This document shows, piece after piece, positions 6-4,479 of a DNA stretch of 38,834 nt. How positions within the stretch are numbered: position 1 is the stretch's first letter; each line of letters begins with the position of its first letter. Both the position numbers and the translations under genes were made by a program. This DNA is from Lachnospiraceae bacterium (GTDB lineage Bacteria; Bacillota; Clostridia; Lachnospirales; Lachnospiraceae), in NCBI GenBank assembly GCA_024698075.1, contig JAILRP010000063.1:1-38834 (forward strand), read 5' to 3'. The notes below the pieces were generated by a model. The model did not search any database. It saw nothing but the letters and a program-made list of their open reading frames with translations, and was not told the origin of the DNA.

Positions 6-80
<75 letters not shown>

Positions 81-3168: not shown

Positions 3169-3726
3169 TTACTGATCCTCCTGTGTTCTCTTTGCCGCTA
3201 CGACGGCAAACTTCGTAGCATTGTCATCTCTTTCGTTTATCTGTTCATCAAGCACCTTAAGCCCGTAAAAAGCCGCCGTCTCAACACTTGCTATGGCGGC
3301 AACCGCCATGTTCTGCATCCTCGCGACCTGCCTTGCCGCAACGGCCGTGTTTTCCGCCTCGATGACCTCATACCCCCTGTCCCTGATATAGGTATCGCAC
3401 TGCTCAAGCGCCTTGTGCTGGCTGATGACCTTTCTGATATCACTTATCCTGCTTCCGCGCACACCGAGCAGATTCTGCGTGATCGGGAAGGACTGCTCCC
3501 GGACCACTTCGAGTCCGCCTTCTGCCAGAAGCTCCTTCACCTCACGGACAGGGCCTGCATAGCTGTTCTCAACCGGCAGGACCGCATAGTCGCAGTCTCC
3601 GGAGGCGACTGCATAATACGCCTCTGCAAAGCTTCCGAACGGCACATGCATCTCATCCGGAAACATGTTCCTTGCCACCATATGTGCAAACGCTCCTTCT
3701 ATCCCGCTGTATGCGATCCTTTTCAT
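3169..3726 (-). CDS. pheA: Prephenate dehydratase, catalytic domain only
   Basis: This enzyme converts prephenate to phenylpyruvate, the committed step to phenylalanine. The 185-residue protein begins KRIAYSGIEGAFAH, and carries the family motifs ENSYAGPV, the SQHKALEQC region and NATKFAVV (the TRF-type substrate motif, here with Lys). It ends right after the catalytic domain. The C-terminal ACT domain that normally gives Phe feedback inhibition is missing, and there is no chorismate mutase fusion. The ATG at 3726 is preferred because AAGGAG lies 10 nt upstream. An in-frame start at 3774 has no such site. It is the first gene of the pair with DAHP synthase. Loss of ACT fits with control at the RNA level by the leader just upstream. 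Confidence 0.93.
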   Translation of the reverse strand: MKRIAYSGIEGAFAHMVARNMFPDEMHVPFGSFAEAYYAVASGDCDYAVLPVENSYAGPVREVKELLAEGGLEVVREQSFPITQNLLGVRGSRISDIRKVISQHKALEQCDTYIRDRGYEVIEAENTAVAARQVARMQNMAVAAIASVETAAFYGLKVLDEQINERDDNATKFAVVAAKRTQEDQ

Positions 3727-3816
3727 GGTTATCATTCTCCTTCGAAAATCATCCGGCCTTAATTTTTCATCCATAAGTTTCGCAGTTCCCCCTGCCCGAT
3801 CTCATACGGACCGCAC

Positions 3817-3848
3817 AAAAAAGGCGGCCCGTTCTTTTCCGGACCGCC
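3817..3848 (-). terminator. Attenuator terminator upstream of pheA
   Basis: On the minus strand the sequence GGCGGTCCG, a short A-rich loop and CGGGCCGCC form an 8-9 bp GC-rich stem (one G-U pair) followed directly by TTTTTT. It lies between the Phe-rich leader peptide and pheA, so it would stop the transcript before the structural genes. Its 5' arm contains CGGTCCG, the exact complement of CGGACCG in the leader peptide, which allows a competing antiterminator. Confidence 0.88.
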
Positions 3849-3876
3849 TGCAAGTTCAACTCATGATACGAACACA

Positions 3877-3951
3877 TCACAAATTTCCCTTACATCGGTC
3901 CGATGTAAAGGCAAACAGGAAATATGCTGCTGTGAACTTGTTCTGGCTCAT
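3877..3951 (-). CDS. pheL: Phe/Tyr-rich leader peptide of the pheA-aroF operon
   Basis: A 24-residue ORF starts about 30 nt after the -10 box and ends before the terminator. It contains a Phe codon at position 6, then the cluster YFLFAF at positions 10-15, the arrangement expected of a ribosome-stalling leader peptide. A purine-rich stretch (GAGAGAAAG) precedes the ATG. The last Phe codon begins one arm of a hairpin (TTTACATC...GATGTAAG) whose centre, CGGACCG, is complementary to the 5' arm of the terminator. A ribosome stalled on the Phe codons would open that hairpin and free CGGACCG to form an antiterminator. This parallels enterobacterial pheL in logic, not in sequence. The symbol is by analogy. 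Confidence 0.82.
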   Translation of the reverse strand: MSQNKFTAAYFLFAFTSDRCKGNL

Positions 3952-3980
3952 ATCTTTCTCTCTTAAATATCTTTTTTGTC

Positions 3981-4009
3981 AGAATACACGTTCTGAAAAA
4001 TCATGTCAA
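3981..4009 (-). promoter_or_regulatory. Promoter of the pheA-aroF operon
   Basis: On the minus strand there is a perfect TTGACA (4004-4009), 17 bp of spacing and TATTCT (3981-3986). It starts immediately after the iscU stop codon, so the aromatic operon is a separate transcript with a leader of about 250 nt. Confidence 0.85.
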
Positions 4010-4017
4010 TGATTTTT

Positions 4018-4479
4018 TTATTCTCCCGGCATCTGATAATATTCCTCGGTCTCCTCGATATCGTTTACCGGAGGCTTTAATCCGTCTATGACTATGTTCT
4101 CCTTCTGCGCATAATCCCACAGTGCCGCATGTATTGCCTGCTCGGCGAGAAGCGAGCAGTGCACCTTTACGGGCGGCAGTCCGTCGAGCGCCTCCATCAC
4201 GGCCTTATTTGTGACCGTCATGGCGTCTTCAATGCTTTTTCCCTTTACAAGCTCCGTTGCCATCGAACTCGTCGCTATCGCCGCACCGCACCCGAATGTT
4301 TTGAACTTCGCATCGCGTACTATCCTATCATCATCGATGTCAAGATACATGCGCATGATGTCTCCGCACTTTGCATTTCCCACAGTGCCGACCCCTGATG
4401 CATTTTCGATCTCTCCTACATTTCTCGGATTCGAGAAATGATCCATTACCTTATCGCTGTATTCCGTTACCTGGCTCAT
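4018..4479 (-). CDS. iscU: Iron-sulfur cluster scaffold protein, NifU/IscU type
   Basis: This is the scaffold on which Fe-S clusters are assembled from sulfide supplied by cysteine desulfurase, acting in the cytosol. At 153 residues it is the single-domain NifU-N/IscU form. The three cluster-ligand cysteines are visible in GNAKCGD (about residue 38), KTFGCGAA (about 63) and KVHCSLLAEQA (about 108). The segment HFSNPRNVGE is typical of the family. The ATG overlaps the iscS stop by ATGA, so synthesis is coupled. The C-terminal extension after the third Cys is longer than in IscU of proteobacteria, as is common in Clostridia. Confidence 0.95.
   Translation of the reverse strand: MSQVTEYSDKVMDHFSNPRNVGEIENASGVGTVGNAKCGDIMRMYLDIDDDRIVRDAKFKTFGCGAAIATSSMATELVKGKSIEDAMTVTNKAVMEALDGLPPVKVHCSLLAEQAIHAALWDYAQKENIVIDGLKPPVNDIEETEEYYQMPGE

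Follow-up and report, generated by a model that had tools for sequence, protein, structure and literature searches.

A leader region upstream of pheA-aroF

The window, that is the whole 38,834-nucleotide stretch of Lachnospiraceae DNA analysed here, carries on its minus strand an iscS-like gene (5693-4476), an iscU-like gene (4479-4018), a leader region, pheA (3774-3169) and aroF (3167-2139), in this order. The first two genes were assigned by likeness rather than by profile scan. The aroF product is a DAHP synthase of the aroFGH type (TIGR00034, 256.5 bits against a cut-off of 173.2) and the pheA product consists of a dehydratase domain only, its translation more likely starting at 3726, a position conserved in relatives, than at 3774. 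Two tRNA genes, also on the minus strand, lie at the start of the window (6-79 and 172-245).

A consensus scan of positions 3700-4100 returned two promoter-like sites, against a mean of 0.7 in shuffled sequence, and a single terminator-like site at 3849-3822 (shuffle mean 0.3). The stronger promoter-like site, TTGACA-17-TATTCT at 4009-3981 on the minus strand, is the predicted leader promoter and lies between the iscU-like gene and the leader ORF; the weaker one is on the opposite strand. The ORF itself (3951-3877, minus strand, like all features that follow) is predicted to encode a peptide of 24 codons, MSQNKFTAAYFLFAFTSDRCKGNL, containing the Phe-rich cluster YFLFAF (3924-3907), which places Phe codons 21, 15 and 9 bases upstream of the G in GACCG. 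A hairpin lies at the last of these codons (hairpin 1:2, CCUUUACAUCG / CGAUGUAAGGG, 3911-3887), and its region 2 (CGGACCGAUGUAAG, 3902-3889) is common to this hairpin and to an antiterminator 2:3, whose 3' arm is region 3 (CUUGCAGGCGGUCCG, 3854-3840). Between regions 2 and 3, nested within the antiterminator, is a helper hairpin (3885-3858), and the last part of region 3 doubles as the 5' arm of a Rho-independent terminator with a U run (regions 3:4, 3849-3817). The terminator and the antiterminator share one arm and are mutually exclusive. All the parts that the initial annotation had described, namely the 24-codon Phe-rich ORF, the hairpin at the last Phe codon and the terminator before pheA-aroF, are present on the minus strand.

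Distribution of the leader and conservation of its Phe codons

We searched for PheA in the window genome and 60 relatives, obtained a match in 44 of the 61 genomes and read 30 loci upstream of the gene. Among the 15 loci with the closest PheA (L001-L015), a count that leaves out one match in the closest-relative range (G035:C126), 11 have the full leader before pheA: the window's own (L001), L002, L003, L006, L008 and L010-L015. At L004, region 3 and the terminator are kept before pheA and the Phe ORF is absent (27.8 bits with our model R1; L004:2088-2180, minus strand); at L005, L007 and L009 neither the upstream sequence nor model R1 revealed a leader. Nor was a leader seen at the 15 more distant loci (L016-L030), where model R1 at E 1 gave a single match of 14.4 bits; 13 of these 15 genes are open frames of at least 368 codons that look, by likeness, like chorismate mutase-dehydratase fusions. 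The open frame nearest to the leader on its upstream side is a different one at each of the 11 loci and lies on the opposite strand at three; it is thus pheA, rather than the preceding gene, that the leader accompanies.

A DNA pattern covering region 2 and the segment behind it was found in 21 records of a species-level genome collection, all of them Lachnospiraceae and five with titles that name the rumen. Ten were already known through PheA, ten were new leaders, and one (L040:1017-1176, minus strand) has the RNA part only, with part of the hairpin, the pause-like segment described below and the terminator; it has no Phe ORF, and its first downstream ORFs are not PheA-like at their starts. 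L004 and L040 may be remnants of the leader, or may reflect assembly errors. The leader-bearing P6B14 and AD3010 are records without a metagenome-assembly mark. Together with a leader found before pheA-aroF in another genus by covariance-model search (L055, in genome G140), the 21 distinct Lachnospiraceae leaders (set A2) make up the 22 leaders analysed here. PheA follows in all 19 leaders checked (18/18 of A2, and L055), a check that left out L033, L036 and L041, whose loci end nearby. At least 13 of 21 loci have a DAHP-synthase start (MGMxYxRQLA) in the second or third listed ORF. Upstream, 16 of the 22 leaders have a site that matches TTGAC-type/TA..[AC]T at a spacing of 16-18; no such site was found for the other six, one of which (L032) is close to the start of its locus.

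The case for a Phe leader is carried by conservation in these relatives, since four Phe in 23 codons is by itself only moderately unusual (P ~0.02, assuming a Phe content of 4.5%). Counted from the G of GACCG, the codons at -21, -15 and -9 are for Phe in 22/22 leaders and the one at -18 in 16/22, and these positions fall outside the patterns that served to find the leaders. The codons vary silently, with TTC/TTT counts of 13/9 at -21, 1/21 at -15 and 0/22 at -9, the last codon being also constrained by pairing within hairpin 1:2. The ORF frame and its stop are likewise identical in 22/22, although the stop overlaps letters used to select ten leaders and to recognise the others. In every leader checked for PheA, an ORF with codons for the cognate amino acid, its translation being predicted, thus stands before the gene. 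Both features on whose conservation in relatives the initial annotation had staked its reading, the Phe codons and the pairing of CGGACCG with CGGTCCG, are kept, and the comparison did not refute that reading.

The same conservation could be ascribed to a structured RNA switch, such as a small-molecule riboswitch or a tRNA-binding element, in which the short ORF is incidental. The RNA letters around and behind region 2 are indeed more conserved than the first half of the peptide, and a leader from another genus with quite another ORF (L060, discussed below) keeps a similar segment. We nevertheless consider such a switch very unlikely, given the three invariant Phe positions with their silent third-base changes, ORF residues in the other leaders that suit the downstream gene (WW where that gene is TrpB-like, and Y, F and W where it encodes a DAHP synthase) and the lack of a match to any Rfam leader family at the window leader up to E = 10.

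Alternative RNA pairings and their covariation

The initial annotation had pointed to the complementarity of CGGACCG, within 3902-3889, and CGGTCCG, within 3854-3840. This complementarity is present and forms part of a longer antiterminator, in which six extra pairs (UGUAAG with CUUGCA) bring the total to 13/13, the full pairing being CGGACCG-A-UGUAAG with CUUGCA-GG-CGGUCCG. When all 77,638 15-mers of the window (both strands) were compared with the antiterminator arm, only one reached 13 pairs, region 2 itself, and three reached 12.

Across A2, 93.5% of the cells of hairpin 1:2 are paired, with little covariation and with shuffles equalling the real alignment on four of five measures. The corresponding values are 97.8% for the antiterminator, 96.1% for the five inner pairs of the helper hairpin and 98.0% for the terminator, whose covariation score was matched by 0/500 shuffles. 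Of the 22 leaders, ten were selected by a pattern that contained letters of region 2 and of the pause-like segment, and 11 more were recognised by one resembling it, so that the invariance of region 2 and of the pause-like segment is partly by choice. Because ten rows of A2 had been selected by the letters of region 2, we repeated the count on the 12 leaders found through the PheA protein or the covariance model rather than a DNA pattern (set A3). The antiterminator is paired in 98.1% of cells in this set, compared with 15.6-44.8% when the arms are slid against each other, and three of its pairs are changed on both sides; 0/500 shuffles were as high in such changes or in covariation score, while the terminator (97.5% paired) had its covariation score matched by 9/500, all of these shuffle counts overstating the certainty because the rows of the alignment are related.

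Individual leaders illustrate the compensatory changes. In L055 both arms of 2:3 are changed at two pairs, from CGGACCG/CGGTCCG to CGAGCCG/CGGCTCG. In L014, UGUAAG/CUUACA has become CGUAAG/CUUAUG, accompanied by a matching change in hairpin 1:2, and L014 and its close relative L052 have one 2:3 pair and one 1:2 pair changed.

These changes also bear on the peptide. Nascent-peptide arrest is a known principle, of which ermC and tna represent types, and the tail FTSDRCKGxL, which is much alike in the 22 leaders, might be taken for an arrest motif. The tail, however, overlaps hairpin 1:2 and region 2 and changes together with the RNA pairing, reading TPGRRKG in L014 and L052 and TSSRCKG in L055, and arrest at the stop would keep the antiterminator from forming; we therefore regard peptide arrest as highly improbable. 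That the terminator merely ends an upstream operon, with pheA starting further down and the remainder due to chance, is barely credible: the element does lie between a same-orientation upstream gene and pheA, but the leader stays with pheA while the upstream frame differs in 11/11 loci, the 13-pair match is unique, antiterminator and terminator both covary, and a promoter-like site separates the upstream gene from the leader ORF.

Folding under different ribosome positions

In order to follow the choice between these pairings, we removed from each of the 22 leaders the RNA that reaches to the leading edge of the ribosome, which was assumed to cover 12 bases counted from the A-site codon, and folded the rest. 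As long as region 4 has not been transcribed, stalling at -21, -18 or -15 yields the antiterminator in 22/22 leaders and stalling at -9 or at the stop in 0/22; an early stall frees region 2 and a ribosome at the stop masks it. The idea that a ribosome stalled for Phe-tRNA would free CGGACCG accordingly needs a shift in position: in every leader it holds when the ribosome stops two to four codons short of the last Phe codon, whereas a ribosome stalled on that codon itself would cover part of CGGACCG.

The folding comparison with and without a stalled ribosome, which had been suggested as a check, gave a divided answer. The antiterminator is obtained before region 4, but once the full transcript is at equilibrium the terminator wins in 22/22 leaders and in all six ribosome states, so that the switch must be kinetic. 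Classical attenuators are likewise held to be kinetic. With no ribosome and before region 4, the antiterminator is favoured in 18/22 leaders and hairpin 1:2 in four, and the role of hairpin 1:2 as a protector therefore rests on folding order or on a pause. The model needs hairpin 1:2 to be formed first and held, and a pause would help.

Taken together, we conclude that pheA-aroF is very probably controlled by a transcription attenuator of the ribosome-mediated, leader-peptide type, with charged Phe-tRNA as the signal sensed, as the initial annotation had proposed; the conserved Phe codons, the compensatory changes in the antiterminator and the conserved terminator support this assignment. RNA polymerase would start just downstream of 4009-3981, make hairpin 1:2 and probably pause at about 3879, giving a ribosome time to load on the leader ORF. 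With Phe-tRNA scarce, the ribosome would stall on Phe codons that precede the last one by two to four codons, covering most or all of region 1 and leaving region 2 free to pair with region 3 (13 pairs, with the helper hairpin between) before region 4 is made; the terminator would then not form and pheA-aroF would be transcribed. With Phe-tRNA plentiful, the ribosome would reach the stop and cover region 2, and the 3:4 terminator would form. One general consideration counts against an attenuator: Bacillota are classed as having runaway transcription in a passage of PMC13323073, which would weaken the coupling of ribosome and polymerase.

A pause-like segment behind hairpin 1:2

Directly behind hairpin 1:2, which is a likely pause hairpin, the 22 leaders have the segment GGGNNNNTTGTG, part of which was used in the finding and recognising patterns. 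In the window the corresponding stretch, GGGAAATTTGTG (3889-3878), fits the RNA polymerase pause consensus, and the spacing of the segment agrees with G-11 G-10 ... T-3 G-2 Y-1 G+1, a consensus that includes positions beyond -10G, -1Y and +1G. The predicted -1 base in the window is 3879, where the leader stop codon begins. These three positions, -10G, -1Y and +1G, are given as the E. coli pause consensus in a section of PMC10268239. The fit in letters and spacing suggests that the segment may pause the polymerase.

At the same place behind the hairpin, four leaders of other genera (L056, L057, L058 and L060) have GTARGGNNNNTTTGYNATG despite different frames and stops. As a loose pattern, GTARGGNNNNTTTGYNATG has a high background in whole genomes (34 of 299 genomes, compared with 22 for the reversed control), which is why its count was not used as evidence. 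Reading 30 loci with this pattern yielded five leaders, all already found by model R1.

Related leaders in other genera

We ran model R1 against 299 genomes that sample the family at close to one genome per genus. At E 0.01 it matched 12 of them, and we judged seven to be true on reading (G000, G025, G140, G288, G227, G113 and G278). In the order and the phylum it matched 8 of 295 and 5 of 398 genomes, respectively, with only the window's own leader convincing. The matches L059, L061-L064, L065 (the second in the window genome), L066-L072 and L164-L167 were rejected as chance on inspection by eye, having no fitting leader ORF or lying in or beside unrelated genes.

In G288, the ORF MKEFDNSTIYFYWFFFAGLTE (L056:1477-1625, plus strand) stands before a DAHP synthase that a profile scan assigns to the B. 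subtilis type. The genes downstream (L056/L126) read, by likeness only, as aroB, aroA, aroC and chorismate mutase-dehydratase and on to a TrpB-like gene. Apparently placed before a long aromatic operon, this mixed aromatic leader (IYFYWFFF) may respond jointly to Phe, Tyr and Trp. In both L057 and L058 a Phe-rich ORF precedes a gene for a PaaK-like ligase. The ligase of L058 scores 503.8 bits with TIGR02155, below the cut-off of 646.3, and the protein after it has two ACT domains; L057 was assigned from protein starts that are the same, and the genus of L058 holds one genome only. Rumen bacteria can make Phe from phenylacetate. We also observed a match to Clostridiales-1 (RF01699), below the gathering threshold, some 110 bases upstream of the Phe leader that precedes the PaaK-like gene (L124:12681-12834, minus strand; 37.2 bits, gathering 48, E 1.4e-4). 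In G278, L060 has MKRLYDIANKFWWRLTKY before a TrpB-like gene. Each of these four leaders has a terminator, and folds inspected by eye suggest that the alternative pairing includes the 5' arm of the terminator.

We tentatively propose, as a possibility that we hold to be on balance unlikely, that Lachnospiraceae possess a modular attenuator family with one chassis, made of a hairpin with GTAAGG in its 3' arm, a programmed pause and a terminator, whose codons would be re-tuned to Phe, to Phe, Tyr and Trp, or to Trp, and which could take the place of a T-box before one and the same gene; the pause built into it would restore the coupling of ribosome and polymerase in a phylum regarded as one of runaway transcription.

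T-boxes in leader-bearing genomes

The T-box family RF00230 has no match at the window locus, neither at gathering level nor up to E = 10. The window genome has one T-box-like match, of 74.1 bits (cut-off 93), before a TrpB-like gene. This genome (G000, 94.3% complete) gave no match to trpE (TIGR00564), and its TrpB-like gene behind the T-box-like match possibly serves indole salvage.

We observed that the genus of the window is poor in T-boxes. Its 37 genomes (G000-G036) have 0-3 matches each, with a median of 2, compared with 0-18 and a median of 9 in 59 genomes of the family's other genera (Mann-Whitney p 2.7e-13, with species that are not independent, some incomplete genomes and strict filters that lose weak matches). 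At pheA, no T-box was found in 19 relatives without the full leader, either at gathering level, a search that also missed the T-box of L031, or at E 0.01, and there is accordingly no support for the Phe leader having replaced a T-box there. Using a ranking of short ORFs, we found no cognate leader peptide before trpE at five loci (trpE being present in five of 12 leader-bearing genomes, with a T-box at two of the five loci) or before ilvB-type genes at 22 of 30 loci of leader-bearing genomes, and hence no sign of a general replacement of T-boxes.

A different situation is found in the genus of G278, in which a close TrpB-like protein is present in 12 of 14 genomes. A T-box precedes the TrpB-like gene in 11 of the 12 loci (L104-L114; 78.9-95.9 bits), and G278 alone of the 12 has a Trp leader (FWW) in this place (L060, L103). 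Judging from these sequences, L060/L103 and L104-L114 appear to represent a natural exchange of the sensing device before one TrpB-like gene.

The leader and the ACT domain of PheA

The initial annotation had noted that the dehydratase lacks its ACT feedback domain and suggested that control at the RNA level may be its main Phe control. The absence was borne out for the window PheA, in which PF00800 covers residues 20-195 and no ACT domain is found. The leader also precedes, however, PheA proteins that extend some 90 residues further at the C-terminus, at the place of the ACT domain (L008, L010, L014, L052 and L055). The extension is covered by full-length NCBIfam dehydratase profiles in L008, L014 and L055 and was judged by length and end in L010 and L052; Pfam detected no ACT domain in the extension of L005, L008, L010, L014, L052 or L055. 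In addition, the nearly identical pair L007 and L009 has neither leader nor extension. A tie between loss of the ACT domain and presence of the leader was therefore dropped, as the leader occurs with extended PheA and extension-less PheA occurs without the leader. RNA-level control as the main Phe control is unsupported as a rule and possible for the window genome.

Comparison with known systems

Leader-peptide attenuators are best known from E. coli, where pheA (with its pheL leader), trp, his and pheST are controlled in this manner. The window leader has the same design, with an ORF rich in the regulated amino acid, pairings 1:2, 2:3 and 3:4 and a terminator before the operon. It differs in belonging to another phylum, in having no Rfam match and in a stop that overlaps the pause-like segment, and its operon is pheA-aroF, with a dehydratase without an ACT domain.

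In many Firmicutes the same job, the sensing of charged tRNA to control a terminator, is done by the T-box (RF00230), unlike at the window locus, which has no T-box match. The initial annotation had taken T-boxes to be the usual device of the phylum for this task; leader peptides, some of them said to replace T-boxes, are nevertheless already in print there. The parts of the sources considered here describe His leaders of bacilli, reported as replacing T-boxes (PMC2965389), His attenuators in the B. cereus group, Eubacteriales and Erysipelotrichales (PMC9413887), the Rli60 attenuator of Listeria (PMC5864092) and a Leu-rich leader of S. aureus ilvD (PMC5794164); these belong to the same mechanism class with other amino acids, and the same parts name no Phe leader and no Lachnospiraceae. 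A passage of a 2005 paper states that no Firmicutes aminoacyl-tRNA synthetase gene uses classical attenuation (PMC1262725). Among the matches listed from the open-licence PubMed Central literature, no title reports a Phe leader peptide from Clostridia, Lachnospiraceae included.

The section of PMC8632094 describing the motif uORFC-13-1 presents a Phe uORF found exclusively before aroF, in Acholeplasma and unassigned environmental sequences only (24 representatives). This motif shares Phe codons, a short ORF, a DAHP synthase gene and a terminator with the window leader, and differs from it in that the same section gives no antiterminator.

Leader-peptide control in Firmicutes is thus already known, and the Phe leader adds to it. 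For Lachnospiraceae, most sampled genera of which are rich in T-boxes, it adds leader-peptide control by Phe and probably by Trp and mixed aromatic amino acids. The two devices occur in one genome and, in another genus, one stands in place of the other before the same gene. Since attenuation of this kind depends on a ribosome that follows the polymerase closely, the leader, if working, also makes coupled versus runaway transcription in Clostridia testable at a natural site. Measured against the systems above, the new elements are the pause-like segment, the similar layouts in four other genera and the T-box-poor host genus, and it is the proposed shared chassis with its putative pause that would be the more novel part.
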